Shown: positions 793 through 28,802 of the stretch, in pieces | How the letters are laid out: the number at the start of each line of letters is the position of its first letter | Numbering within the stretch: the stretch's first letter is position 1 | Assembly: GCA_015491865.1 (NCBI GenBank) | Contig: WFVD01000024.1 | Location: forward strand, 1-35,395 | Origin: Gammaproteobacteria bacterium | Lineage (GTDB): Bacteria; Pseudomonadota; Gammaproteobacteria; SZUA-140 | Length of the DNA stretch: 35,395 nucleotides | Direction: 5' to 3' | Notes under the pieces: model-generated | What the model was told of the DNA's origin: nothing | The model's input: the letters and a program-made list of their open reading frames with translations, nothing else | Databases searched by the model: none | Program-made: the position numbers and the translations under genes

Positions 793-2931
793 TTATAATT
801 TGAAACGGGTGACCATTGAACCGAGGTGGTTGGCGGCATTGGAGAGCTCTTCACTTTCGCTAGCGGTCTGCTTGGCACCACCTGCGGTCTGCTCGGTAAT
901 CTGGCGAATCTCAACCATATTACGGTTGATCTCTTCGGCAACCGCGCTCTGCTCTTCAGCTGCGCTGGCGATCTGGGCATTCATGTCTGAAATCGTGCCG
1001 ACCGATTGATTGATCGCCTTCAGCGCCTCACCCGCCCTGGTGGCCTGTTCTACGCTGGTCAGTGTCTGTGTGCGCCCACTCTCCATGGTGCTAACGGCAT
1101 TGCCGGCGCTCTGCTGAATCCGTTCGATCATCGACTGGATCTCCTGTGTGGATGTCTGAGTGCGGCTGGCCAGTGTGCGGACCTCATCAGCGACCACAGC
1201 AAATCCTCGCCCCTGCTCGCCGGCACGTGCCGCCTCAATCGCGGCGTTGAGCGCAAGCAGATTGGTCTGCTCTGCGATGTCGCGAATGACATCAAGCACT
1301 GAGCCGATCTCCTGGCTTTCAGTCTCCAGCCCATGGATCACTTCGGCTGCCCCTTCAACCTCCCTTGCCAGTTCATTAATGGAAGTGATGGTTTCAGTGA
1401 CGACCCGATCGCCTTCCTTAACACGTTCGTCGGCAATGCGAGCTGCATCAGCCGCATTCTCGGCGCTTCTGGCAACTTCTTGCACAGTTGCCGCCATCTC
1501 AGTGACAGCACTTACCACCTGGTCTGTTTGAAGCTGTTGTTCGGCGACACCCGCACTGGTCTGCATCGTGACACTCTGTAACTGGCTGGCCGAGCTGGAA
1601 AAGCTCTGCGTCGACTGGATAATCTGCTGAATGATGAGTCGAAACTGTTCACCAACAGTATTAAAGGCCTCGACCACCTCACCGATTTCATCTTTAGATT
1701 CACTTTTTGCCCGTGCGTTCAGATCGCCCTCGGCCAGTTTATTCGAGACAGCCTTTAGTTCTGATACGGCCTTGTGCACTGAACTGTAGAAACCGATGAA
1801 GAGATAGATCGCAATGGCCGCCATGCTGAGCATGATGATAAAAAGGGTGCGTTTTTCATTGCGGAAACCGTCACTACGCAGCTCAAGCAGAGTGTCGAGT
1901 TGCGGTGCGATATTATCGTATAGCTGATAGTTCGATACGATCGCACTGGTGCCGAGGGTGAACAGGTTATTTGGGTCGAGTGAGATCGCATTTTGTGTGA
2001 TCAGCTCGTTATTGAGTGTTTGCAGAAAGGTGTTGACCTCCTGAGCGCTTTTGTCCAGACTTGTTTTCAGCGCGGGTTCGAGCGTCGGGTTTTCGCGGAA
2101 GGCGACCTGCATTCCGCTGATCACACCATTGATATTATCTTCTATCTTGTTGGCCAGAATAGTGAGTTTGATTCGCTCATTGAGCGTGATGGTGCCACGC
2201 GCAGCAACACCCGCACCTGCCCCGCGAGCCTGCCCGAGGTTTTCCGTGACATGGAGCAGCTTATTGACGATGGCATCCATCAGATAGTAACTATCCAGAT
2301 CCGGATCCAGAATCAGGTTGGAGGTGTCACCGACATGGGAGATCAGCGCGATGACATTCGCGATCAGCTCTGAATGGGCGGCGAAAATCTCTTTGGCTGA
2401 GAGTTGACTGTCGCCGAGACCGCGGACACGACTCCACTCCTGTTTAATAGCAAGCCACTGTTCGTGAGCATCAAGCTGCTCGCCCAGCCGGGCATCAATG
2501 GCATCGATGGCCATAATATCAGCATCGATATCTGCCCGTTTAGCGAGAATCTTGTTTTTAAAGCTATGGTCACCAGCGAGATAGGCGTTGGTCATGCCGC
2601 GATGTGATGGGATATTTTCAGTCAGTTTTCTGAGGCCCTGGATATACTCCACTCCAAGACGCTCTTTTTCAGCAAAATTGATACCGATGTTCAGCTGACT
2701 GTTGAGCATAAAGAGGCTGACGACCAGTGGGATCATAAAGATAGTGGAGATCAATATCATCTTGCGTGAATAAGAGAGCTTATTCATGAGCATCGCTGCA
2801 GGTTTAATTAATGACACGGCGCTGTTCCTCAGGATTATTGTGATTAAATGGCGATTAAATTCAGCAGTAATTGTGTGGTAATCTGTTTTGCTTATCGACC
2901 CTGTGCAGGGGTTCTTTAGGGTTTGATTCAC
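793..2931 (-). CDS. Methyl-accepting chemotaxis protein
   Basis: This is a transmembrane chemoreceptor that would control CheA activity from an inner-membrane position. Counting from the GTG at 2931 (712 residues), a first membrane helix lies at about 58-78 and a second at about 362-383. Between them is a helical periplasmic domain of roughly 280 residues. A HAMP linker (about 383-437) and the methyl-accepting coiled coil follow. The conserved hairpin tip is at about 552-585 ([19 protein letters not shown]). There is no C-terminal CheR-tethering pentapeptide. The GTG start has a good ribosome site (AGGA, 5-base spacer), but it puts some 55 residues before the first helix. The ATGs at 2793 and 2787 would give a more usual N-terminus but lack a Shine-Dalgarno sequence. 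The ligand is unknown. It is monocistronic with its own terminator. Confidence 0.93.
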
Positions 2932-15892: not shown

Positions 15893-16372
15893 TCAGCCCG
15901 GATAACAGAGGCAGCTGCTTTTTAAAATTTGCCGGGTGCTCTTTTCTACTTGTTCAATAGTGGCTGGTGATGCTGTATTGCTGGCATCGCACTGTTCCAG
16001 TTCTACGCCGTAAAATTCAATCTTAGTGGGTAATTCGGTGATGGCTGCTGCGATGGCCAGTCCCTGTTGCAGACCGATGCCGTGGCTTGATGTTGCCGGT
16101 GGTAGTGTTAATTTCTCACTGGGATCCAATGACAGACGGTGTAGCGTACCAGGTGTTGCACCGCTCTTTACTGCATCAACAAAGATCAACTCTTCAGGTG
16201 GCTGGTATTGATGAATCCAGTCAACACCGCTGTGGTCACAGCAGATGGCGCGAACGCCATTCCGATTTTTTAGTGCTGTTTGCAGTTTTTTAATCACCTG
16301 CCAGCCAAACTGATCATCACCATAGGGTGAACCAAAGCCGACGATGAGAGCTCTGTTTAAATCTGGCTTCAA
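15893..16372 (-). CDS. [NiFe]-hydrogenase maturation endopeptidase
   Basis: This is an HycI/HoxW/HyaD-type protease that cuts the C-terminal tail off the large subunit after Ni insertion. The N-terminal VGFGSPYGDDQFGW holds the first Ni-sensing acidic residue, FVDAVKSG the second Asp, and TSSHGIGL the His. The length of 159 residues is typical. Its ATG overlaps the stop codon of hyhL (ATGA at 16369-16372), so it is translated with its substrate. It is the last gene of the operon; its expected substrate is the HyhL tail FIDLTVTRN. Confidence 0.92.
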   Translation of the reverse strand: MKPDLNRALIVGFGSPYGDDQFGWQVIKKLQTALKNRNGVRAICCDHSGVDWIHQYQPPEELIFVDAVKSGATPGTLHRLSLDPSEKLTLPPATSSHGIGLQQGLAIAAAITELPTKIEFYGVELEQCDASNTASPATIEQVEKSTRQILKSSCLCYPG

Positions 16373-17670
16373 TTGCGTGTTACCGTTAGATCAATAAAAT
16401 GAGTAGCGCATGAAATACAGGGGTCGTAGTTGCGAATCACCTGTTCGGCGTGCTGGCGCAGTGTCACTTCATCATTGTCTAACCCTAAGGCTTCCAGCGA
16501 CAGGCGCAGGTCTTCCTCAATGCGTGCCTGATTCTGGCTGGTCGGCGGTACCAGCCTGGCAAATGTGATGATGCCGTCATCATTGACCTCGTAACGGTGC
16601 CACAATGTGCCGCGTGGTGCTTCGCTGCAGCCGTAGGCGCTGCCAGCTTTCGGCGTCACTTCGACTGCGGCAGTGGCAGGAGAGGTGTAATCTTCCAGCA
16701 GGCGAACCGCCTCAAGCAGGCTGTAATAGATCTCTGCCGCGCGAGCGACGATGTTGTGATAGGGGTTGTCACTGGGAAAGCTGATCTTTGTATTACTCAG
16801 GCTCGCTTTAATCTCATCGTGCAGCTGCTCATAATTGAGGTTAAGCCGTGCCAGCGGCCCGACCAGGTATGGGCTACCGTCAAGATGGCTGTGCAGGGCG
16901 GTGGAGTGTGGTATCTGTGACTCTTTGAAATAAGCTTCAAAGGCGTTGATTTCGAGATTGTGCCCGGCGCTGGTGACCAACGTGGTGTCGAGCATGTTGA
17001 TTGGGTATTCGACTGGATTTTGAAGAGTGACAGAGACAAACTTCTGTGTGCGATCAGGAAAGTTTAACGTCGCCACCCATTCAAGCAGCCCCTTTGCATC
17101 GGGCAGTGCACTGCGTAGTCGTTCAACCAGCGCGGCGACACTTGTCTCATTGGGCACCTTGTGAAAACCACCCACTTTTACGCCGACTGGATTAACCGAG
17201 CGCGCGCCAAACAGTTTGATCAGTTCGTTGCCGAGTCCCTGTAGTTTTAGTCCGCGCCGCACTTCATCCGGGAACTGCTTCGCCATTTCGGGGGCACTGC
17301 TATAGCCAAGAAAGTCCGGCAGGGCGAGCAGGTGGATATGTAATGCGTGACTTTCAATCCATTCGCCACAGTAATAGGCGCGCCGCATCGCATCGATCCA
17401 CGGTGTGATCTGAGTAGCGAAGAGCGCTTCAAAGGCGTAGACGGCACTCATCTGGTAAGCGACCGGACAGATACCGCAGATCCGGGTGACGATGTCGGGC
17501 ACCTCTGAATAATGTCGCCCTTCGAGGAGTTTCTCAAACAGCCGTGGCGGTTCAAAGATGCGTAGTTTCAGGTCGGTGATGCGGCCATCCTCGACGCGGA
17601 TGTCGAGCGCCCCTTCACCCTCGACACGCGCCAGCACCGGCACATTGATGTTGATTGTTCTGTCACTCAT
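16369..17670 (-). CDS. hyhL: Group 3b [NiFe]-hydrogenase large (catalytic) subunit
   Basis: This subunit carries the NiFe(CN)2CO site that splits or forms H2. The N-terminal Cys pair is in RICGICP (Cys65, Cys68 from this start) and the C-terminal pair in DPCISCATH (Cys418, Cys421). The nine residues after His424 are the peptide removed in maturation. The start is the ATG at 17670 (433 residues). It overlaps the small-subunit stop by 8 bases and has AAAGGT upstream; the open frame to 17760 covers small-subunit sequence and is not used. Short length, the motif type and the neighbouring diaphorase-like subunits place it in the cytoplasmic NAD(P)-linked group 3b (sulfhydrogenase-type) family. Confidence 0.95.
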   Translation of the reverse strand: MSDRTININVPVLARVEGEGALDIRVEDGRITDLKLRIFEPPRLFEKLLEGRHYSEVPDIVTRICGICPVAYQMSAVYAFEALFATQITPWIDAMRRAYYCGEWIESHALHIHLLALPDFLGYSSAPEMAKQFPDEVRRGLKLQGLGNELIKLFGARSVNPVGVKVGGFHKVPNETSVAALVERLRSALPDAKGLLEWVATLNFPDRTQKFVSVTLQNPVEYPINMLDTTLVTSAGHNLEINAFEAYFKESQIPHSTALHSHLDGSPYLVGPLARLNLNYEQLHDEIKASLSNTKISFPSDNPYHNIVARAAEIYYSLLEAVRLLEDYTSPATAAVEVTPKAGSAYGCSEAPRGTLWHRYEVNDDGIITFARLVPPTSQNQARIEEDLRLSLEALGLDNDEVTLRQHAEQVIRNYDPCISCATHFIDLTVTRN

Positions 17671-18463
17671 CGGTTCGACCTTTATTTCTGTATTTTTGTC
17701 CAATGGCATGAAATACCGGGGCGTTGTTATTGATGAAGAGAAAATTGCGCGAGATCTCATCTGCCGTCATCCCCAGCCCTTCAAAACGGTTTGCCAACGC
17801 ATTGGGATTGGGGTTTTCTGCCGGGCCGTAACAGGCGTAACAGCCGCGCCCAAACTGCGGGCAGAGCGCGCCGCAGCCTGTGCTGGTTACGGGGCCCATG
17901 CAGGGCTCACCTCGGCTTACCATGACGCAGACGCTCTGATGACGTTTGCACTCAAGGCAGACTTTGCTCTGCTCTATCTCTGGCAAAACACCGAATAGCA
18001 GCGCACGAATTGTGCTGCTGATCTGGAGGCTATTGATCGGGCAGCCCCATAGTTCCAGGTCGATACGCACATGGTCAGAGAGCGGGGTAGCGGTTGTGAG
18101 GCTTTTAATGTGCTCAGGTGAGGCGTAGATCGCATCGATCCACCCCTGGCCGTCACTCATATTGCGCAGTGCCTGGATGCCGCCCGAGGTGGCGCAGGCG
18201 CCCATTGCGATCAGGTAGCGGCTCTGTTCACGAATCTTTTTAACCTGTTCCATCTCTCGTGGGGTGGAGATGCTACCTTCGATAAAGGCGATATCAACCT
18301 CTGCAGCTTCATCCAGCACGCCTGCTTCAGCAAAGTGTTTGATGTCAACCAGCTCTGCGAGTGTTAACAGCGCCTCTCCGAGATTGAGAATTGCCAGTTG
18401 GCAGCCGTCACAGGAGGTGAACTTATGGACGGCAACGGCAGGCTTTGTGTGATGGATCTTCAT
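17663..18463 (-). CDS. hyhS: Group 3b [NiFe]-hydrogenase small subunit
   Basis: This is the FeS-relay subunit between the NiFe site and the diaphorase module. The proximal cluster ligands begin with FTSCDGCQLA (Cys18, Cys21) followed by GACATSGG and WGCPIN. A C-terminal Cys-rich part (CLECKRH, CMGPVTSTGCGALCP, GCYACYG) should hold two further clusters. There is no Tat signal peptide, so the enzyme stays in the cytoplasm, as expected for group 3. The length of 266 residues is usual. Its ATG overlaps the hyhG stop by one base (TAATG), and its stop overlaps the hyhL start. Confidence 0.95.
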   Translation of the reverse strand: MKIHHTKPAVAVHKFTSCDGCQLAILNLGEALLTLAELVDIKHFAEAGVLDEAAEVDIAFIEGSISTPREMEQVKKIREQSRYLIAMGACATSGGIQALRNMSDGQGWIDAIYASPEHIKSLTTATPLSDHVRIDLELWGCPINSLQISSTIRALLFGVLPEIEQSKVCLECKRHQSVCVMVSRGEPCMGPVTSTGCGALCPQFGRGCYACYGPAENPNPNALANRFEGLGMTADEISRNFLFINNNAPVFHAIGQKYRNKGRTDE

Positions 18464-19296
18464 TAGAATCCACTGTGCGTAAAGAGCGGTTCGATCTGCT
18501 TATAGGAGAAGACGGGGCCGTCACGGCAGACAAAGTCGGCGCCGTACTGGCAGTGGCCACATTGGCCGAGCGCGCATTGCATATTGCGCTCCATGCTGAG
18601 ATAGATCGCATGTTCCGGGATCTGGCGTAGCAGCAGTTCATCCACGCAGGCTCGCATCATCCCCTCCGGGCCGCACATCATCACGATGGTGTGATCACTC
18701 AGCCTCATCTGGTCAAACAGCTCAACCACCAGACCGACATGCCACGGCCAGGAGGGGTCACCCTTGTCGGCGGCGAGGAGGACCTCGGTGTTGGGTTCTT
18801 TAATCCAGCGCTCAAAGCGGTCGCGCCAGATGAGATCCTTCGGGAGTTTCACCCCCTGCAGGATGGTCAGTTTACCGAACTGTTTGCGTCGTTCAGCGAT
18901 GTAGTTGATGACTGAAACGACAGGTGCGCAGCCGAGTCCACCGGTAATCACCAGCACATCTCGCCCTTCAGCTTCTTGCATCGGCCAGCCGCGCCCGTAA
19001 GGACCCCGCAGGCCGATGATGTCACCCGCCTGTAGCTGGCTGATGCCGTTGGTTACACGTCCAACGGTGCGGATGGTGTGGTCGAGCAGTGTTGGGTCTT
19101 TGGGGTCGGAGACGATCGAGATGGCCACTTCACCCACACCGTAGAGATAGACCATGTTGAACTGCCCCGGTGCGAAGCGGTAACCGGCACGTATTTCGGG
19201 ATCGAGAAATTCCAGTCGCAGGGTAAAGACGGTGCCGCTCTCCTGGATCCGTTCCACGACGCGTGCACGCCAGGGGCGGTGGGGGTTATCCATCAT
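18463..19296 (-). CDS. hyhG: Group 3b hydrogenase gamma subunit (FAD/NAD(P)-binding reductase)
   Basis: This ferredoxin-NADP reductase-like subunit moves electrons between the FeS chain and NAD(P). The FAD-binding beta-barrel comes first (YRFAPGQFNMVYLYG), then the nucleotide-binding fold (VITGGLGCAPVVSVI and MMCGPEGMM). A C-terminal [2Fe-2S] site follows (MQCALGQCGHCQYG plus VCRDG). The start is chosen at the ATG at 19296, because GGAGGTG lies 6 bases upstream; the GTG at 19305 sits on that ribosome site. The gene start lies inside the end of hyhB (11-base overlap). The protein has 277 residues. Confidence 0.94.
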   Translation of the reverse strand: MMDNPHRPWRARVVERIQESGTVFTLRLEFLDPEIRAGYRFAPGQFNMVYLYGVGEVAISIVSDPKDPTLLDHTIRTVGRVTNGISQLQAGDIIGLRGPYGRGWPMQEAEGRDVLVITGGLGCAPVVSVINYIAERRKQFGKLTILQGVKLPKDLIWRDRFERWIKEPNTEVLLAADKGDPSWPWHVGLVVELFDQMRLSDHTIVMMCGPEGMMRACVDELLLRQIPEHAIYLSMERNMQCALGQCGHCQYGADFVCRDGPVFSYKQIEPLFTHSGF

Positions 19297-20419
19297 CGGT
19301 TTCACCTCCAGCGCGATTCAGTATTGCGAGTTCTGCGGTGAGGTCGATACCCGGTGGGCACCAGGTGATGCAGCGGCCGCAGCCGGTGCAGCCGGAACGG
19401 CCATATTGATCGTGCCAGCCTGCAAATTTATGTGTTAGCCACTGGCGATAGCGCAGCCGGGTGTCGTGGCGCAGCGTGATGCCGTGCATATAGCTATGCC
19501 CCGGAGTGAAACAGGAGTCCCATTCGCGTTGCTGCTCGCTGCTGCTGCCATCGAGCTCTGCTTCGCTCTGTTCACTGTAACAGAAACAGCTGGGGCAGAC
19601 AGAGGTGCAGTTGCCACATGAGAGGCAGCGGCTGGCGATCTTATCCCACTGTGGATGGTCGAGCGCATTAAACAGAGTATCGCGCATGTTTTGCGACGGC
19701 ACGGCCCGTACCTGTCGAGTGGCATTGGCTTCGTGTTGAGCTGCTTCATCACACTCTGCTTTACTGGCACTGCGTAGCGTGAGCGGCTTAGTCACCTGCC
19801 TGCCCTGAGGGGTGGCGCTGGTGATGACGAAACCGCTATCGAGTTCTGTCATCGCAATATCAAAACCAGCAGTAGGGTCACACCTCGGGCCGTCGCCAGT
19901 GCTGCTACAGAAACAGCTCTCAACAGCGCGGGTGCAGTTGATCGCGATAATAAAGAGATGTTGACGGCGTGCTGCATAAAAGGGATCGGGGCTATGGTTG
20001 ACAGAGAGGAAGTGCCGGTCCTGTAGTCTGAGTGCGGCGAGGTCGCAGGCGCGCAGTCCGATGATTGCCAGCTTCTCTGTGCTGTTAGCGGGGTCTTCAA
20101 AATGGGGGGCGCCTGTCGTATCGCGGGTCGCACGCCAGAGGGTTTCGCGCGGCCTGAATAGCAGTGGTTTGACCCCCTGCGCCGTGGAGACCCAGTCAAA
20201 CCAGTGTTCGCTACCGTTGTTTATCAAACGGTAACTGGCAGGGGCGTGGTGGTCTTCAACGCCTTGCGGTAGTGCTGATGTGCTCTTCAGTGGCGCGTAG
20301 ACGATGGCCCCATCGCGAACCTGCGGCCCGTAAATCTGATGGCCACTGCGCTGCAGGTTATCGAACAGTTGCTGTAACTGATCTCGTGGCAGAAAATGGG
20401 GCGGCAGGGTGTGCGTCAT
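19286..20419 (-). CDS. hyhB: Group 3b hydrogenase beta subunit (4Fe-4S electron-transfer)
   Basis: This is an iron-sulfur subunit related to the anaerobic sulfite reductase A subunit and sulfhydrogenase beta. Two [4Fe-4S] motifs are near the C-terminus: CLSCGNCTSVCP (Cys265, 268, 271, 275) and CTGCGRCITWCP (Cys344, 347, 350, 354). Additional Cys occur at CFCSSTGDGPRC (about 169-180) and SCFC (about 277-280). The N-terminal domain (REDTLW-like, IIGLRACDLAAL) matches the family. The length of 377 residues is normal. It starts 18 bases after hypE and overlaps hyhG. Archaeal homologues also reduce polysulfide; whether this one does is unknown. Confidence 0.93.
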   Translation of the reverse strand: MTHTLPPHFLPRDQLQQLFDNLQRSGHQIYGPQVRDGAIVYAPLKSTSALPQGVEDHHAPASYRLINNGSEHWFDWVSTAQGVKPLLFRPRETLWRATRDTTGAPHFEDPANSTEKLAIIGLRACDLAALRLQDRHFLSVNHSPDPFYAARRQHLFIIAINCTRAVESCFCSSTGDGPRCDPTAGFDIAMTELDSGFVITSATPQGRQVTKPLTLRSASKAECDEAAQHEANATRQVRAVPSQNMRDTLFNALDHPQWDKIASRCLSCGNCTSVCPSCFCYSEQSEAELDGSSSEQQREWDSCFTPGHSYMHGITLRHDTRLRYRQWLTHKFAGWHDQYGRSGCTGCGRCITWCPPGIDLTAELAILNRAGGETDDG

Positions 20420-20437
20420 ATCGCTCTGTCACCTCTC

Positions 20438-21451
20438 TCAACATATGCGTGGTAAAGGGTCATCTTCCAGCTCTTCAACGATTCGTTGTCCGCCCAGTGG
20501 TGTCTCAAGCATAACATAGGGCGTGTGGCTGGAGACGTTGCCGATGATGGCAGCCTCACGCCCGTCACTGAGTCGCTGTAGCGCCCTGAGTGCAGTATCT
20601 GCCTGAGTCTGGTCGATGACCGCCACCACCCGCCCTTCACAGGCGAGATAGAGCGGGTCGTAGCCGAGGATTTCACATACGGATGTGACCTCATCACGTA
20701 CTGGAATAGCCGCCTGCTGCAGATGTACCCCAAGGCCAGTTGAGCGATGGATCTCATGTAGCACTGTCGCGACACCGCCGCGAGTAGGGTCGCGCATAAA
20801 ACGCAGGCCACTAAATTCCAGCAATGTGTTTGTGATTGGCACCACAGAGGCGGCATCGGATTTCAGCTCGCCCTGTAGTCCAAACTGTTCACGTGCCAGC
20901 AGCACTGCGGTGCCGTGATCACCAATCGGGCCACTTACGATGATGGCATCATCGCCCCTGATCTGTGACATGGCGACTCTCTGCATCGTAGCCTTTACCC
21001 CGATGCCGCTGGTGGCGAGGTAGAGGCCGCTCCCTTCGCCACGGCGTACCACCTTGGTATCGCCAGCGACCACCTTTACGCCGCAGGCCTGAGCGGCACT
21101 CCCCATGCTCTTGATGATGCGCGTTAGCTGTGCGATCTCCAGTCCCTCTTCGATAAAGGTGTTAAGGCTGAGGTATTGTGGCGTTGCTCCCGAGACCGCG
21201 AGATCATTGACGGTGCCGTGGATTGCCAGTGAACCGATATCGCCGCCAGGGAATTCCAGTGGATCGACGGTAAAACCGTCAGTGCTAAAGAGTAGCTCCG
21301 CTTGAGGAAAGGGGAGCGTTACGGCATCACAGTCAGGGTCGAGTGACGCATTGCCGAGGTATCGAACGAAAATTTCTGAGATCAATGCACGCATGCGGCG
21401 GCCACCGTTGCCGTGCGCGAGGGTGATGTGGCTCTCATCGCGCCGCTTCAT
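20438..21451 (-). CDS. hypE: Hydrogenase expression/formation protein HypE
   Basis: HypE dehydrates the thiocarbamoyl group placed on its C-terminal Cys by HypF, yielding the thiocyanate from which the Fe-bound CN ligands derive. The N-terminus LAHGNGGRRMRALI, the ATP-binding PurM-like core (DGFTVDPLEFPGGDIG, RDPTRGGVATVLHEI) and the essential C-terminal Cys (PRIC, last residue) are all present in 337 residues. Its ATG overlaps the hypF stop (ATGA at 21448-21451), linking the two partner proteins translationally. Confidence 0.96.
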   Translation of the reverse strand: MKRRDESHITLAHGNGGRRMRALISEIFVRYLGNASLDPDCDAVTLPFPQAELLFSTDGFTVDPLEFPGGDIGSLAIHGTVNDLAVSGATPQYLSLNTFIEEGLEIAQLTRIIKSMGSAAQACGVKVVAGDTKVVRRGEGSGLYLATSGIGVKATMQRVAMSQIRGDDAIIVSGPIGDHGTAVLLAREQFGLQGELKSDAASVVPITNTLLEFSGLRFMRDPTRGGVATVLHEIHRSTGLGVHLQQAAIPVRDEVTSVCEILGYDPLYLACEGRVVAVIDQTQADTALRALQRLSDGREAAIIGNVSSHTPYVMLETPLGGQRIVEELEDDPLPRIC

Positions 21452-23703
21452 CGCTGTGCGGCTGCCTCAATGATCTGCCCGTAACAGAGCGCGGCATCAT
21501 TGCAGGGGAGCTGCTGTGGCAGGATGACCTTAAAATCCTGCCGTTCAAGCAGTGCTATCGCCTGTTCTGCCAGGCGCCGGTTCTGGAAGACACCGCCGTT
21601 AAGTCCGACAATAAATGGGCCGTGCTGTTGGCGAATCTGCACGGCCAGATCGCAGATTGTGTGGGCGAGCACGCTGTGAAAGAGGGCGGCACGCTGTGCG
21701 ACAGGTTCATTCTGATTCCGAAGCGCTACCAGTAACGGCTGCCAGTCGCTCACCAGAACACCTTCACTGTTGGCGATAGAGGGGAGAGGGTCTGCGCTAG
21801 GGGAGGGGATATTGTTTGCACTGGCTTGTAGCAGCATCGCGGCCTGACCTTCAAAGGTCGCGTGATCGGTCAGACCGAGTAGCGACGCCGCGCCATCAAA
21901 GAGGCGCCCTGCCGATGAGGTGAACGGTGCGTTGATCCCTTTTTTCCAGGCGCTCAACAGCAGCGCCGCTTGAGGGTGGTTGGCCCACGTCTCACCGGCA
22001 TGCCAGCAGAGTGATGCTGCACAGCGCCACGCTTCCCGTGCGGTGCGTTCACCACCGGGCAGACGAAATGGCCGCATGGTGGCCACACGTTGCCACAAGC
22101 CGGGCTGTCCAAGCAGCGCATCGCCTCCCCACAATGTGCCGTCGCGTCCGAGACCCGTACCGTCCCAGGTAAAGACGAGGCAGCGCTCTTCGATAGCTTG
22201 TTCACCGACAACAGCAGAGGCGTGAGCGTGGTGGTGATAGACCCTGGTGACGGGCAGGCTGTTATCGGCGGCCCAGCGATGGCTGAAGTAGTCTGGATGT
22301 GCATCACAGATAACGCCTTCGGCGCTAACGGCGTAATGGTGCTGTAGTGAATTGATGGTTTTTCTGAAAAGATCGGCACTGCGTGGTGAGTCAAGCTCGC
22401 CGATATGTGGTGAGAGTACGATACGGTTATCCCACGCAAGGGCGATGCTGTTTTTCATCTGCCCACCGACGGCGAGCAGTGGTCTGTCGAGTGTCACAGG
22501 AAGTGAGCGTTCTAATGGTGCATGGCCCCGCCCGAGTCGCAGCGGGCGCGGTTTTTTATCGATGACCTGAAACAGACTATCATCTGCGCTGTGAATGATG
22601 GGGCGGTCATGATGCAGAAATGCGTCCGCAATATTGCCAGACCTCGCTTCAAGCTCATCGCCCTCAGTGATCACCGGCTCACCGCTGATATTGGCCGACG
22701 TGACGACCAGGGCGGTGTCGGTGCTATTTAAGATCAACTGGTGGAGTGGGCTATAGGGTAGCAGTGCGCCGATCTGGTTGAGTCCCGGTGCGATCAATGT
22801 CGAAAGTGTGGTGGCGGCCCTTTTTTCACATAATACAATCGGACGGCTGCGCTCACACAGCAGTGCCGTGGTGGTTTCATCGCAGAGCAGTTCCCGCTGC
22901 ACGGCATCGATATTACGGAACATCACCGCTAACGGTTTATCTGGGCGCCCCTTCTGTCTGCGTAAACGGGCGACGGCTGCGTCGCTACTGGCGGTGCATA
23001 AGAGGTGGTAGCCGCCGATCCCCTTAACCGCGATGCTCTTGCCTGCGCGTAATAGCTGCTCTGTTTTAATGAGTGCATCAGCGGTGTCGTTGAGGCGGAT
23101 GTTACCTGCTACAAAGGTGAGCTGTGGACCGCACATCGAGCAGGAGATCGCCTCGGTATGAAAGCGGCGATCAGCGGGATCGCGGTACTCTTTCTCACAT
23201 TGAGTGCAGCGTGGGAAGTTCGCCATGCTGGTACTGCTGCGGTCATACGGCAGCTGTGTGATGGCGGTGTAGCGAGGGCCGCACTGTGCGCAGTTGATGA
23301 ATGGGTAGCGGTAGCGGCGGTTAGCCGGGTCGTTGAGTTCATCGAGACAGCGCGGACAGCAGTCGAGATCGCACGGCAGGTGGATGTTGTGCCCCTCGTT
23401 ATGGATGCTGTCGAGAATGGCAAAGCGAGCAGTAGCGGCGAGACGGGCGCTGTCGATCTCATTCCGTTGGCTGATACGAGGAGAGGCGACTGCCGGTGCC
23501 TCTTTGATCAGTCGTCGCATAAAAAGTGCGGTTGCCTGCTCTGTTCCGCTTGCCATGATCTCAACTTCACCACGCAGGTTACGTGCCCAGCCTGTGATGC
23601 CAAGCGCTGTTGCGATACGGTAGATATGAGGCCGAAATCCGACCCCCTGAACCTTGCCGCTCAGGCGTAGATGGATAGTGGAAGTGGTGTGATCTGGTTG
23701 CAT
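21448..23703 (-). CDS. hypF: Carbamoyltransferase HypF
   Basis: HypF uses carbamoyl phosphate and ATP to carbamoylate the C-terminal Cys of HypE in CN ligand synthesis. Domains in order are acylphosphatase (GKVQGVGFRPHIYRIA), two zinc fingers (CDLDCCPRCLDEL and CAQCGPRYT; then CTQCEKEY and CSMCGPQ), a YrdC-like domain (KGIGGYHLLC, IAVMFR-type segments) and a Kae1-like C-terminal domain (HHHAHASAV, FTWDGTGLGRDG, GLNGGVFQNRRL). The start is the ATG at 23703 (751 residues), 7 bases after the hypD stop. The open frame to 23778 lies over hypD and lacks the family N-terminus. Confidence 0.96.
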   Translation of the reverse strand: MQPDHTTSTIHLRLSGKVQGVGFRPHIYRIATALGITGWARNLRGEVEIMASGTEQATALFMRRLIKEAPAVASPRISQRNEIDSARLAATARFAILDSIHNEGHNIHLPCDLDCCPRCLDELNDPANRRYRYPFINCAQCGPRYTAITQLPYDRSSTSMANFPRCTQCEKEYRDPADRRFHTEAISCSMCGPQLTFVAGNIRLNDTADALIKTEQLLRAGKSIAVKGIGGYHLLCTASSDAAVARLRRQKGRPDKPLAVMFRNIDAVQRELLCDETTTALLCERSRPIVLCEKRAATTLSTLIAPGLNQIGALLPYSPLHQLILNSTDTALVVTSANISGEPVITEGDELEARSGNIADAFLHHDRPIIHSADDSLFQVIDKKPRPLRLGRGHAPLERSLPVTLDRPLLAVGGQMKNSIALAWDNRIVLSPHIGELDSPRSADLFRKTINSLQHHYAVSAEGVICDAHPDYFSHRWAADNSLPVTRVYHHHAHASAVVGEQAIEERCLVFTWDGTGLGRDGTLWGGDALLGQPGLWQRVATMRPFRLPGGERTAREAWRCAASLCWHAGETWANHPQAALLLSAWKKGINAPFTSSAGRLFDGAASLLGLTDHATFEGQAAMLLQASANNIPSPSADPLPSIANSEGVLVSDWQPLLVALRNQNEPVAQRAALFHSVLAHTICDLAVQIRQQHGPFIVGLNGGVFQNRRLAEQAIALLERQDFKVILPQQLPCNDAALCYGQIIEAAAQR

Positions 23704-23710
23704 CGATCGG

Positions 23711-24820
23711 CTACGCCTGTTTTGCTCTGCGCTGTTTATGCAAGCCGCTGCTCCACCAGATGCGGCACGCCCCTTCATCCGAGACCATGCAGGGGCCGAC
23801 TGGGTTTGATGGTGTACAGGCGGTACCGTAGAGCGGACAGTGATCCGGGGGCTCTTTTCCCAGTATCACTTTTGCACAGTCGCAGCCGGGCGGCATCTCA
23901 TCTTTATGGTGAGACTGTGCGCTGTACTTTGAAAAATGAATATGGGCATCGTGCAACCGATATTTCTTCTTAAGCGCGTAACCCGATGCGGGAATGGTGC
24001 CAATGCCGCGCCAGCGGCTGTCGACAGTCGTAAACGTCTGGTCAATCAGGTGCTGTGCATGACGGTTCCCTGATGGCGTGACGACTGCGGGGTAACTGTT
24101 TACGAGCGTGGCTTCGCCGTTTATCGCCTGCTGGGTGACAGAGCAGATCGCCGCAAGCAGTGACGCGGCATCGAAGCCGGCAACTGCGACAGGGCGCTGG
24201 TGCCGCTCTGCTACAAAGCGCCACTCATCGCTACCCATTACGGCACTAACATGGCCAGGGGCGATCAATGCATCAAAACCGGCCTGGTCTCTATTTAACA
24301 GCTGTGCAACAGCCGGCCAGGTCCGACGTGCGGCGAGTAATAGAAGCAGATTGTCTGGAATACCTTCTGCGATGAGCGCCGCTGTTGGTGCGCTAGTGGT
24401 TTCAAATCCAGCCATAAAGAAAACAACCTGTTGAGTGGGGTGTCGCAGTGCAATGGTGCGCGCCTCAAGTGGCGATGCGATGGGATGGATGTTGGCACCT
24501 GCCGCGCGTGCCTGCTCAAGTGAACGTGGTTCGCCTCTGGCTGTATTGATCGGCACGTGCAGCATATCCCCAAAGGTGACGACGACCACCGGCTCATTGA
24601 GGGCGATCGCTATCGCCATCGCAATGGTCTCTTCCGGGCAGATACAGACGGGGCAGCCGGGGCCGGGGATAAGCTCAATATGGCCGGGGAGTAGTGAGCG
24701 TAAGCCGGCCAGGTTGATGGTGCGTTCGTGGCCACCACACACATTCATGATTTTGAATGGGTTAGACGGGGCGAGGGTATTGATCTGGTCGAGCAACTGC
24801 CTGGCACGCTGATTCGACAT
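23711..24820 (-). CDS. hypD: Hydrogenase formation protein HypD
   Basis: HypD, with HypC, forms the scaffold on which the Fe(CN)2CO unit is assembled. Conserved Cys motifs are MNVCGGHERTI, PGPGCPVCICPEE and GFETTSAPTAA. The C-terminal [4Fe-4S] region has MPPGCDCAKVILG, HCPLYGTACTP and GPCMVSDEGAC. The length of 369 residues is standard. It starts 3 bases after the hypB stop. Nothing is missing. Confidence 0.96.
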   Translation of the reverse strand: MSNQRARQLLDQINTLAPSNPFKIMNVCGGHERTINLAGLRSLLPGHIELIPGPGCPVCICPEETIAMAIAIALNEPVVVVTFGDMLHVPINTARGEPRSLEQARAAGANIHPIASPLEARTIALRHPTQQVVFFMAGFETTSAPTAALIAEGIPDNLLLLLAARRTWPAVAQLLNRDQAGFDALIAPGHVSAVMGSDEWRFVAERHQRPVAVAGFDAASLLAAICSVTQQAINGEATLVNSYPAVVTPSGNRHAQHLIDQTFTTVDSRWRGIGTIPASGYALKKKYRLHDAHIHFSKYSAQSHHKDEMPPGCDCAKVILGKEPPDHCPLYGTACTPSNPVGPCMVSDEGACRIWWSSGLHKQRRAKQA

Positions 24821-24823
24821 TAT

Positions 24824-25579
24824 TCAGCTGCTCCGTTGAAGATGCTGATGTGTGTCGTTGAGCCACGCCAGCCACTGGGCAACGCCATCGCCCCGTTTTG
24901 CTGAGAGCGGTAATAGTGGAGTGTCCGCGGCAACAGAGGCGAATGAGTCTGTAGCACATTGTAGATCGAACTCATCAAGCAGCGGCAGAAGATCAATCTT
25001 ACTGATGAGCAGCAGATCAGAGGCGCGGAAGATGAGCGGATATTTTTCCGGTTTATCATCACCCTCGGTTGTTGAGAGTAGTGTGACATTGCGGTGCTGG
25101 CCGAGGTCGAAGCTGGCAGGGCAGACAAGGTTGCCGACATTTTCGATAAAAAGCAGATCTATCTGTTCAAGGTCGAGTTGCTGTAGTGCACTGTCCACCA
25201 TCGTTGCATCAAGGTGGCAGGCGTTCCCTGTGGTGATCTGAACTGCTTCGACCCCCTTCGCACGGATTCGTCTGGCATCGTTTTCTGTTTCGAGATCACC
25301 CTCAATTACGGCAATGTGATAGCGGCTTAGCAGTTCATCGATGGTGCATTCCAGCAGGGTCGTCTTTCCTGAGCCGGGTGAGGACATCAGGTTAATAGCC
25401 GTGATGTTGTGTTTTGTTAGCCGTTGACGGTTGCGTGCAGCCTGCTGGTCATTATCAAATAACAGCGTGCGATGAACATCAACGATAACAGTCTCGCCAG
25501 CTGGGGCGTGATCCGCTGAAAAACCATCGCCCTGAACCCTGTATCGTTTGCCGCCATTGCAGCCGCAATTAGTGCACAT
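24824..25579 (-). CDS. hypB: Hydrogenase nickel incorporation GTPase HypB
   Basis: HypB is a SIMIBI GTPase that delivers Ni to the large subunit together with HypA. The N-terminal CTNCGCNGG motif (Ni-binding in relatives), Walker A SSPGSGKTTL, EGDLETENDA, TTGNACHLDA with the metal-binding Cys-His at the G domain, and ENVGNLVCPA are present. The His-rich storage stretch found in some HypB proteins is absent. The length is 251 residues. Its ATG lies inside the end of hypA (11-base overlap). Confidence 0.96.
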   Translation of the reverse strand: MCTNCGCNGGKRYRVQGDGFSADHAPAGETVIVDVHRTLLFDNDQQAARNRQRLTKHNITAINLMSSPGSGKTTLLECTIDELLSRYHIAVIEGDLETENDARRIRAKGVEAVQITTGNACHLDATMVDSALQQLDLEQIDLLFIENVGNLVCPASFDLGQHRNVTLLSTTEGDDKPEKYPLIFRASDLLLISKIDLLPLLDEFDLQCATDSFASVAADTPLLPLSAKRGDGVAQWLAWLNDTHQHLQRSS

Positions 25580-25934
25580 GGCCTGTTTGATCCCGTTTTT
25601 TAAGCACGATGTTTTCGATTCTCATCTCATCACCGCTGAGTAGCTGTGTTACGCTGTTGTGACAACTGTTACAGATGAGCAACCTCTTCGGCTCACACTT
25701 GTTGCCACACTTTCTACAATAAATAGTCACTACTGATCGGGTGACCTCAAGTGCGGCATGTTCAGCGATCGTACCGCGTGAGACCAGAGGAAAAGCGCGT
25801 TCCAGCAGCGCTACTTCGACCCCTGCCAGTGGGCCAATATGGAGGCGAATGGCGTTGATTGCTATGGCGTGATGTGCTTCTGCGATCCGAGTCACCTGTT
25901 GCAGCATACCCCGACAGAGTGAGAGCTCATGCAT
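25569..25934 (-). CDS. hypA: Hydrogenase maturation nickel metallochaperone HypA
   Basis: HypA binds Ni through its N-terminal Met-His and passes it on with HypB. MHELSLCRGMLQQV is the classical start and carries His2. The zinc site is formed by CRKCGNKCEP and CNSCHN; the first part has one Cys more than usual. The start is the ATG at 25934 (121 residues), which overlaps the hypC stop by 8 bases. The longer frame to 26042 is hypC sequence read out of frame. Confidence 0.95.
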   Translation of the reverse strand: MHELSLCRGMLQQVTRIAEAHHAIAINAIRLHIGPLAGVEVALLERAFPLVSRGTIAEHAALEVTRSVVTIYCRKCGNKCEPKRLLICNSCHNSVTQLLSGDEMRIENIVLKKRDQTGHVH

Positions 25935-26169
25935 TCGGGTCACCTCTGATTGCTCCCTGCATCTCACGCTCAGTTTCCCAGGCAAGCTGAGCCGCTTCGG
26001 GATCGATTTTCTGGATCGCATACCCAACGTGTACCAGTACATAGTCGCCAGGTTTCAGCACGCCACGTTCAAATATGAATAGATTAACAGTTCGGGTAAT
26101 GCCTCCTGAGTGACATGAGGCGAGATCACCATCGATTTCTGTTATCTGCATGGGTATGGCGAGGCACAT
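25927..26169 (-). CDS. hypC: Hydrogenase assembly chaperone HypC
   Basis: HypC is a small chaperone that binds HypD and then the immature large subunit through its N-terminal Cys2. MCLAIPMQITEIDG is the hallmark start and YVLVHVGYAIQKID the typical core. The protein is 80 residues. AGGAT lies 3 bases before the ATG. It is the first gene of the 11-gene hydrogenase unit, so the promoter of the whole operon should lie in 26170-26300. Confidence 0.95.
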   Translation of the reverse strand: MCLAIPMQITEIDGDLASCHSGGITRTVNLFIFERGVLKPGDYVLVHVGYAIQKIDPEAAQLAWETEREMQGAIRGDPNA

Positions 26170-26755: not shown

Positions 26756-27970
26756 ATGAACGAACAGAAAGTGAGAGAGTTTGTAGAGATAAATAGAGTT
26801 TCAGGAAAGCAGCCACGCCCAAAAATACTTATTGTTGATGATGCCAGGGAAAACATTACCGCAATGGAACATGTGTTATCTGATCTGGATATCGACTTGG
26901 TAACATCAACAGATCCATATAAAGCGCTTTCATATACTTTGGAACATGATTTTGCATTAGCGCTGATAGATGTACAGATGCCCCTGCTAAATGGATATCA
27001 GACAGCAGAGAAGATGCGGTCAGCAGAGCATAGCTGCCATATACCTATTATGTTTGTCACTGCTAATTCACTGGATGAGAGAAGTGTGATGCATGGTTAT
27101 GGTGTAGGCGCTATTGATTATATTGAAAAACCTTTAAATCCCTATGTACTGAAAAGCAAGGTTAATATGTTTGTTGAATTATATAGAAATAAGCTTGCGT
27201 TAAAGGAGGTGAGCAGGGAAGTTAAGGAGGAGAAGGGTAGTGCAGAGAGTTTGAGTGAGATAGAGAGTAGTCTTGTCGCAAATATTTCCTCAGAGCTGAA
27301 AACCCCACTACATTCAATTATCGGCATGACTGATATGGGAGTAATCAATATTGATAAATGGGATAAGGTAAGGCAAATAGATAACTTGAGGGAAATTAAC
27401 AGCAACAGCCGCACTCTGTTACTACTGCTTAACGATATAATAGACCTCTCCAGGCTGGAGGCTGGCCTGATGGGGTTTAATTACTCAAAGAGCGATATGG
27501 TTTCTATTGTTCGTGATGTAGTCAAGTCGCTAAAACCTCTGATGTATGAAGAGGGTATTCTGGCTGAGATTGAAAGTAACCATGAACCGCTATTTGTAGA
27601 GTTTGATACAGCAAGAATCGGGCAGGTAATTTTGAATGTGATCTCCAGTGCGATTGAACGAACGCCAGTTAATGGGGTCATCAAAATTAACATATCAGAA
27701 GTCACCAGTTCATCTGATGAATGTAGAAAAGCCAGAGTTTCTATTGCAGATTGTGGCGGTGGAATCCCTGATGAGTTAATTTCATCGCTGTTTGACAAGT
27801 TCTCGCAGGTGATATCACTTCGTGGTAGAGATAGTAATACCAGTGGTTTGGGGTTAGCTGTATGTAAGAAGATTATCGACCAGCATGGTGGTTTTATCAG
27901 GATAGAAAATAATGCAGGTATGGGGGCGGTTGTCTCATTTGATATTCCTGTAAAACAGAGCTGCCCTTAA
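26756..27970 (+). CDS. Receiver domain joined to a catalytically degenerate histidine kinase module
   Basis: This is a 404-residue cytoplasmic protein with no membrane helix. The N-terminal receiver (about 22-145) looks active: acidic pair Asp28-Asp29 (LIVDDAREN), phospho-acceptor Asp72 (LIDVQMPLLNG), Thr102 and Lys125 (YIEKPLNP). A HisKA/HATPase module follows, but the H-box reads LVANISSELKTPLHSIIG, so the phospho-accepting His is Ser179. In the N-box (ILNVISSAIERT) the Mg-coordinating second Asn is Ser298. The ATP-lid residues DCGGGIP and TSGLGLAVCK remain. It therefore probably cannot autophosphorylate and may act as a phosphorylation-controlled partner or inhibitor of another kinase. The ribosome site is AGAGGAG. 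It is probably cotranscribed with the HPt gene. Confidence 0.9.
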   Translation: MNEQKVREFVEINRVSGKQPRPKILIVDDARENITAMEHVLSDLDIDLVTSTDPYKALSYTLEHDFALALIDVQMPLLNGYQTAEKMRSAEHSCHIPIMFVTANSLDERSVMHGYGVGAIDYIEKPLNPYVLKSKVNMFVELYRNKLALKEVSREVKEEKGSAESLSEIESSLVANISSELKTPLHSIIGMTDMGVINIDKWDKVRQIDNLREINSNSRTLLLLLNDIIDLSRLEAGLMGFNYSKSDMVSIVRDVVKSLKPLMYEEGILAEIESNHEPLFVEFDTARIGQVILNVISSAIERTPVNGVIKINISEVTSSSDECRKARVSIADCGGGIPDELISSLFDKFSQVISLRGRDSNTSGLGLAVCKKIIDQHGGFIRIENNAGMGAVVSFDIPVKQSCP

Positions 27971-28070: not shown

Positions 28071-28802
28071 ATGGATGAGCAAGCTCTTATTGAAAGTTTG
28101 GGTAATGATTTTGTGCAGGACCTCGTTGATAACCGTCTGAGCTTTTTTCATAATCTTCTCCTGGAGCTTGATAATGAAGGGGATGCGGGCGGTCAGGAAG
28201 TCTATGAAGAGCTATTTCGTCGTTTTCATGGAGCTAAAGGGACTGGTGGTATCTTTGGTATGTACAGTATAAGCACAGTTTTTCATCAGCTGGAAAACTA
28301 TCTAACCCTGTTGAAGTCCCATGGTGATCACAACAAACCTGATGTCTTTATAAAAATGCACCATGAGTTAGATCTTGTTGAGAAAATGGCGTTAGCGTGG
28401 CTGGCAGGCGAGCGTGATCTTAGAAAGTTGATGGTTGAAGATAAAGCCTCTCTCCATTCAAATGAGTTTGCACTGGTACTGGAGCCGATGAAGAGTCTGG
28501 CCAGTCAAATTATCGCAACGCTGCAGAGTAATGGCTATGAAACTACACTGGTTCAGGATGGAGTGCAGGCAATTCAGCATCTTGTTTCCAGACCTTTCAA
28601 TATTTTTGTGACATCGGAGCAGAATAAATATATAAACGGCTCGGAGTTGATTGGGTTTGTGAAAATAACGCCGCGGTTTTCGACTATCAAAACCATCTAT
28701 CTGACGACAGAAAACAGGCGAAAATGGACCACCTTTTCTCCTGATGTCATTATTAAAAAAGACAGCTCTCTGCTAGAGTCTTTTGACATGGCTGTATCGT
28801 AA
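28071..28802 (+). CDS. HPt phosphotransfer protein with degenerate receiver domain
   Basis: The N-terminal 120 residues form an HPt four-helix domain with the motif RRFHGAKGTGGIFG. His53 is the expected phosphotransfer residue (HxxKG). The C-terminal part (about 134-240) has the pattern of a receiver (ALVLEPMKSLASQII, GYETTLVQDGVQAIQHL), but the acidic pair is lost and the acceptor Asp position is Ser182 (FNIFVTSEQ). The Thr (about 212) and Lys (229/230) remain. It should shuttle phosphate from a hybrid kinase to a receiver. It lies 100 bases after the pseudokinase gene on the same strand and ends 5 bases from the convergent aldolase gene. AAGGAAG precedes the ATG. Confidence 0.85.
   Translation: MDEQALIESLGNDFVQDLVDNRLSFFHNLLLELDNEGDAGGQEVYEELFRRFHGAKGTGGIFGMYSISTVFHQLENYLTLLKSHGDHNKPDVFIKMHHELDLVEKMALAWLAGERDLRKLMVEDKASLHSNEFALVLEPMKSLASQIIATLQSNGYETTLVQDGVQAIQHLVSRPFNIFVTSEQNKYINGSELIGFVKITPRFSTIKTIYLTTENRRKWTTFSPDVIIKKDSSLLESFDMAVS

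Follow-up and report, generated by a model that had tools for sequence, protein, structure and literature searches.

Pseudo-histidine kinases (DivL, RcsD, FasC) and Rec-controlled histidine kinases (Rec-HKs, such as LvrB) are each already known. The prototype Rec-HK, LvrB of Leptospira, is a soluble protein with the layout receiver (Rec), DHp and CA (PMC13269768, PMC5863495). It autophosphorylates on its catalytic His161 and is encoded directly after a hybrid kinase, in lvrA-lvrB (PMC5863495). Work on LvrB indicated that the signalling helices of Rec-HKs favour multiples of seven and that receiver phosphorylation acts via coiled-coil formation (PMC13269768), a switch through which the receiver drives the kinase core. 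Caulobacter DivL (PMC4211667) has lost the H-box acceptor, which is replaced by Tyr (Ala in one species), while retaining the DHp-CA fold, and it acts without kinase activity beside a hybrid kinase and an HPt protein. It carries tandem PAS sensors, binds DivK in trans and illustrates that a kinase core can serve as a binding module. RcsD, an enterobacterial membrane protein, has no N-terminal receiver, and its HPt domain is part of the same polypeptide. Its HisKA domain is without the His, and its partners are a hybrid kinase and an HPt (PMC3762810). FasC of Streptococcus and evolved ChrS of Corynebacterium have the histidine kinase fold and are proposed to form heterodimers with an active kinase (PMC12675982, PMC9491836); in both, the DHp His is retained and the CA domain is missing or not needed.

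A Rec-HK that had lost the acceptor His and kept its receiver and helix register would be a natural case in which conformational output is uncoupled from phosphotransfer. No report of a pseudokinase with the Rec-HK layout was found in the literature searched, the coverage of which was incomplete. Here we describe a candidate, a Rec-controlled pseudo-histidine kinase (Rec-pHK), encoded in a 35,395-nucleotide stretch of gammaproteobacterial DNA that is referred to below as the window (Table 1).

Table 1. Positions of Rec-pHK, its domains and neighbouring elements in the window
Feature	Position	Strand	Basis or remark
Sigma-28 (FliA)-like promoter, TAAAGCTC-N11-GCCGATAA	26367..26393	+	362 nt 5' of the Rec-pHK start codon
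Rec-DHp-CA protein, 404 aa (Rec-pHK)	26756..27970	+	ORF, Pfam and model
Receiver domain, residues 24-136	26825..27163	+	Pfam Response_reg
Signalling helix, from the end of receiver alpha-5 via alpha-S into DHp helix 1	27140..27289	+	
DHp (HisKA) domain, residues 171-245	27266..27490	+	
Ser179 codon TCA	27290..27292	+	phospho-acceptor His position
CA (HATPase_c) domain, residues 284-400	27605..27955	+	
Ser298 codon AGT	27647..27649	+	second N-box Asn position
HPt protein, 243 aa, with C-terminal receiver-like domain lacking the acceptor Asp	28071..28802	+	co-directional neighbour

Layout and active-site motifs of Rec-pHK

The open reading frame matched Pfam Response_reg (24-136), HisKA (171-237) and HATPase_c (284-400), each above the curated cut-offs. 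The H-box, VANISSELKTPLHSII, has Ser179 where His is expected, and the N-box, QVILNVISSAIERT, has Ser298 where the second Asn is expected, so that both substitutions described in the initial annotation were borne out, by the codons TCA and AGT. The same annotation held that the fold and the ATP-lid glycine motifs were kept. This was correct for the fold, with all domains over their cut-offs and a model of mean pLDDT 83, but not for the glycines, since Thr362 stands at the leading glycine of G2 (GxGLG), a position with Gly in 57 of 59 homologues in alignment A3. Lys301 of the N-box is replaced by Glu, and the G1 Asp332 is retained. The receiver is intact: Asp28/Asp29, the phospho-acceptor Asp72, Thr102 and Lys125 are all present and invariant among the orthologues.

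The missing acceptor is unusual. All 59 homologues outside the Rec-pHK family have His at position 179, and likewise Asn at 298 and Asp at 332 (alignment A3). His is present in the 22 other HisKA domains read from stretches of the same genome, and it is retained in 26 of 26 further Rec-HK matches across the phylum. For comparison, 0.9% of HisKA domains (722/76,471) have been found to lack the His (PMC12632262). These counts confirm that the Ser179/Ser298 observation is real and lies beyond chance or background. Profile searches of 369 genomes of the class and 398 of the phylum, with strict thresholds and the best-scoring candidates of each genome, revealed no further Ser-type Rec-HK, and a scan of the genome contigs returned only four orthologues from one genus and distant kinases.

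Rec-pHK has the Rec-HK architecture, an N-terminal receiver with an intact Asp pocket joined by a helix to DHp-CA, and in the tree the family (the window protein and its four orthologues) forms a single clade (100/100) with a long stem among active Rec-HKs. All five proteins have Ser179, which is incompatible with autokinase activity of the Rec-HK type. As judged from descent and architecture, Rec-pHK is a Rec-HK, though not an active one, and with a HisKA/HATPase fold, a missing essential residue and a conserved frame it qualifies as a pseudo-histidine kinase. Rec-pHK resembles LvrB in being soluble as well as in layout, but the autophosphorylation route that is open in LvrB is barred by Ser in the Rec-pHK family. 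Like DivL, Rec-pHK has a replaced H-box acceptor on a preserved DHp-CA fold, but the replacement is Ser instead of Tyr, the receiver is fused in cis instead of being bound in trans, and only this receiver precedes the DHp domain, which places Rec-pHK outside the DivL family. The likeness to DivL is one of fold and working principle. Unlike RcsD, Rec-pHK has an N-terminal receiver and no HPt in its own chain, the HPt being a separate protein with a pseudo-receiver. Relative to FasC and ChrS the defect is reversed. Membership of the EpsF family was rejected, as the best NCBIfam match reached only 192 bits against a cut-off of 900.

Separate histories of the two substitutions

Clear orthologues, identified by profile and protein searches, were confined to one genus (G006, G003, G009 and G004). 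They originate from vent and marine gammaproteobacterial MAGs (Chromatiales HyVt-459, Thiotrichaceae NORP103, Chromatiaceae SZUA-76 and Gammaproteobacteria D96SM.bin.20) and are counted below together with the window protein as five orthologues. The G006 protein, whose contig stops at residue 337, is 88% identical to the window protein, and those of G003, G009 and G004 are 57-60% identical. The DHp domain is the best-conserved region of the core, with 75-77% identity between the window and G003, G004 and G009.

In G003, G009 and G004 a hybrid kinase of 1246-1248 aa, with its His intact and three receiver matches, is encoded directly upstream of Rec-pHK, and in G003 only nine bases separate the two genes. 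The arrangement resembles lvrA-lvrB, with an HPt gene following next. The hybrid kinase was absent from the genome of the window and from the sequenced G006 locus. In a further genome, G007 (L066, G007:C74, 3941-5021), all that is left of the hybrid kinase is a stretch of its first ~80 codons, which leads directly into an intact HPt/pseudo-receiver gene, and no Rec-pHK match was found on the contig with this remnant. The gene orders indicate that 5' parts of the gene set have been lost on at least two occasions within the genus. A second hybrid-kinase gene lies upstream in G003 (L039, 1-4143); its product has three receiver matches and is about 48% identical to the G004 and G009 copies of the neighbouring one, which suggests a tandem duplication.

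All five orthologues have Ser at 179, encoded by TCA, TCA, TCT, TCT and TCC. His to Ser requires two base changes, and the two sub-clades are close to saturated at synonymous sites. The codons indicate that Ser179 is ancestral and fixed, held through synonymous turnover. An assembly or sequencing error was rejected because five separate genomes have Ser, spelled by different codons. Residue 298 has another history: G003, G004 and G009 have Asn (AAT), the window has Ser (AGT) and G006 has Cys (TGT). These codons fit a loss via AGT in the common ancestor of the window and G006. Loss of the N-box Asn is limited to the species of the window and its sister G006, both without the upstream hybrid kinase, and on this distribution the change at 298 is later and lineage-specific, in two genomes without the hybrid-kinase gene. 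Among the initial annotation's points, Ser179 proved conserved in all four relatives, Ser298 did not (Asn in three of the five, Cys in G006), and the combination of His-bearing relatives and frame decay that would have spoken against the annotated loss failed in its main part, as the relatives have Ser.

Other catalytic parts vary by lineage. Asn replaces the G1 Asp332 in two orthologues, G006 and G009. At the first glycine of G2 the window has Thr and G009 has Ser, and at position 301 the window and G006 share Glu in place of Lys. G003 and G004 have kept their ATP-binding motifs nearly intact, a point that weighs against the pseudokinase reading. As read from this pattern, the order of loss is that His went first and was fixed, followed by other catalytic parts that differ between lineages. 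The family offers an ordered view of pseudokinase evolution, in which His was lost first and the N-box Asn later, where the hybrid-kinase gene is absent.

The residues around position 179 bear on two other explanations of the protein. Thr183, at +4, is invariant in the five orthologues, and Glu180, at +1 beside the acceptor position, is kept in the window and G006. With these residues the His-less DHp domain could be a receiver-gated phosphatase that uses the +4 Thr to dephosphorylate receivers, either those of the hybrid kinase or that of another regulator, and the His is not essential for the phosphatase activity of HisKA proteins (PMC12632262). However, Glu180 is Ala in three of the five orthologues (G003, G004 and G009). 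Phosphatase activity of HisKA proteins usually needs the CA domain and nucleotide, and the N-box and G2 changes would be expected to weaken nucleotide binding. A review has also argued that phosphatase activity is unlikely as a general role of pseudo-histidine kinases (PMC12632262). We regard this main rival to a binding role as unlikely.

Another residue might instead accept the phosphate, or a heterodimeric partner kinase might phosphorylate Rec-pHK in trans. His186 lies seven residues, or two helical turns, past Ser179 on the same face and is present in all five orthologues compared to 2 of 59 homologues, where Asn is usual. A comparable proposal has been made for a Caulobacter hybrid kinase without its His (PMC11481889), and RcsD was reported to autophosphorylate without the HisKA His (PMC3762810). 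Nevertheless, this position is also His in a few kinases with a normal acceptor His, and three orthologues are without the base Glu180 and two without the N-box, leaving this explanation very improbable.

Selection, helix register and proposed mode of action

Between the window and G006, dN/dS was 0.19 for the receiver, 0.05 for the DHp domain and 0.07 for the CA part, which indicates that the whole frame is under purifying selection. Because both proteins had already lost the N-box Asn, Rec-pHK has been under constraint after that loss. A simple pseudogene was ruled out by the open frame and the low dN/dS. The CA:DHp divergence ratio was ~2, inside the range of 0.8-4.4 found for active kinases of the same genomes, so the rates alone give no proof of release from catalysis or ATP chemistry, and a family-wide relaxation specific to the CA domain found no support on the same grounds. 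The view in the initial annotation that two losses in an intact frame reflect selection holds for the frame and for purifying selection; the two losses are not an equal pair, as only Ser179 is fixed.

These rates also weigh against a decaying leftover, in which Rec-pHK would have drifted after the loss of the upstream hybrid kinase and the N-box and G2 changes would be early decay. Such a course would match the absence of the hybrid kinase from the window's genome and the sequenced G006 locus, the restriction of the N-box change to these two, the unique G2 Thr of the window, and G007, where the hybrid kinase is reduced and Rec-pHK went unmatched on the contig. But the frame is open in both species under the constraint given above for each domain, the receiver active site is intact, and Ser179 is older than the loss of the kinase gene, being common to three lineages that keep it. 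We consider decay improbable; like phosphorylation at His186, it is less likely than the phosphatase.

The helix between receiver and DHp has kept its register. The spacing from Lys125 to Ser179 is 54 residues in all five family members, which is 5 mod 7. The corresponding Lys-to-His spacing falls into the same class in 14 of 17 active Rec-HK rows of A3, where one protein and its orthologues account for the three exceptions. Across the phylum it does so in 21 of 26 Rec-HKs, although lengths range from 40 to 75. This agrees with the heptad preference described in the LvrB work (PMC13269768). Since the heptad register is kept, Rec-pHK would retain the mechanical link from the receiver to the DHp domain, and a mere tolerated scaffold would have no need of such a link. 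The generic structural role proposed in the initial annotation overlooked the intact N-terminal receiver, and a Rec-gated pseudokinase is the better reading.

An AlphaFold2 model built from 64 sequences had a mean pLDDT of 83 and superseded an earlier 5-sequence model with a pLDDT of 39. The top full-length Foldseek match was the Rec-HK LvrB (8vc9), with a different inter-domain posture (rmsd about 28 A). With VIA-align, the modelled DHp-CA core superimposed best on DivL (4q20_B), with a Z of 27.2 and 219 residues aligned at an rmsd of 1.6 A; HK853 came within one Z unit and counts as a tie. The fold is kept according to the model; by itself it gives no function.

On balance, we favour the reading that Rec-pHK is a Rec-controlled histidine kinase turned pseudokinase with its output via binding, which builds on features read directly from sequence (acceptor loss, intact receiver, helix register, purifying selection and gene order). 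It probably acts through contact with partner proteins and not through phosphate transfer, because without an acceptor His its output would have to be binding, and by analogy it is most likely a DivL-like binding module. Asp72 would be phosphorylated, ancestrally by the hybrid kinase encoded upstream, and in the species of the window the phosphate would be supplied by a different hybrid kinase, by an HPt or by a small phosphodonor. As in LvrB, phosphorylation may change the alpha-S coiled coil and thereby alter the posture of the DHp-CA dimer. The DHp surface could then dock a partner, such as a receiver, an HPt or the DHp domain of another kinase, and through such docking Rec-pHK might exert allosteric control over a phosphorelay, comparable to the action of DivL on CckA. 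A point against this reading is that the ancestral hybrid-kinase partner is gone from the window's genome, so that the relay to be tuned there is putative. The protein offers a clean test case for receiver-driven rearrangement of DHp-CA as a signal in itself.

Promoter and neighbouring genes

The sigma-28 consensus is TAAAGTTT-n11-GCCGATAA (PMC2859248). The site upstream of Rec-pHK differs from it at no more than three of 16 positions, with exact agreement throughout the -10 octamer GCCGATAA and over TAAAG in the -35 octamer. It is conserved in G006, G007, G009 and G004, preceding the hybrid kinase in the latter three, and a near-identical site lies upstream of the first of the two tandem hybrid-kinase genes in G003. 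The same operon keeps its sigma-28-like site although the first gene differs, being the hybrid kinase in the relatives and Rec-pHK in the window and G006. The genome of the window encodes FliA (275.9 bits, cut-off 189.6) and two flagellin-domain genes. The main flagellin gene is preceded by a similar site, as are several MCP genes, each site having one or two mismatches. Within the window, the MCP gene at 793-2931 (-) has a sigma-28-like site with one mismatch at 2918. Exact TAAA-N15-GCCGATA occurred six times in the genome, compared to once for the reversed control. Most of the other five exact sites have no obvious motility gene downstream, and membership of the Rec-pHK operon in the sigma-28 regulon is thus likely, not proven. 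The promoter suggests that the relay may operate alongside late flagellar and chemotaxis genes.

The HPt/pseudo-receiver gene downstream is retained in those orthologous loci that are complete. Its His53 lies in an HxxKG context (His53-Gly-Ala-Lys-Gly), as expected for a phosphorylatable HPt His, and is invariant in five of five orthologues and aligned in distant members. We tentatively propose that Rec-pHK combines in a single polypeptide the functions of phospho-receiver and pseudokinase, which are split between DivK and DivL, and that, with a partner HPt carrying a pseudo-receiver, the locus could be a relay branch in which a kinase core and a second receiver have turned into binding modules. 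HPt proteins with a fused receiver-like domain that has no acceptor Asp form a family across the Gammaproteobacteria, with about 15 near-full-length matches in 369 genomes; in the window gene (28071-28802) and loci L103-L111 and L113 the HPt His and the pseudo-receiver pattern ITSxExxxxNG are largely kept. No Rec-pHK neighbour was seen beside the relatives in other families of the class.

On the other side of the operon, NiFe hydrogenase subunits and maturation genes (the hyp cluster and the HycI protease) occupy 15896-26169 (-), divergently oriented and flanked by an aminotransferase gene and by the Rec-pHK operon. These two flanks also occur in G009, where they enclose a different gene of 503 aa instead of the hydrogenase cluster. 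A globin-PAS-MCP gene adjoins the orthologous operon in G003, and an orthologue of this gene does so in G009.
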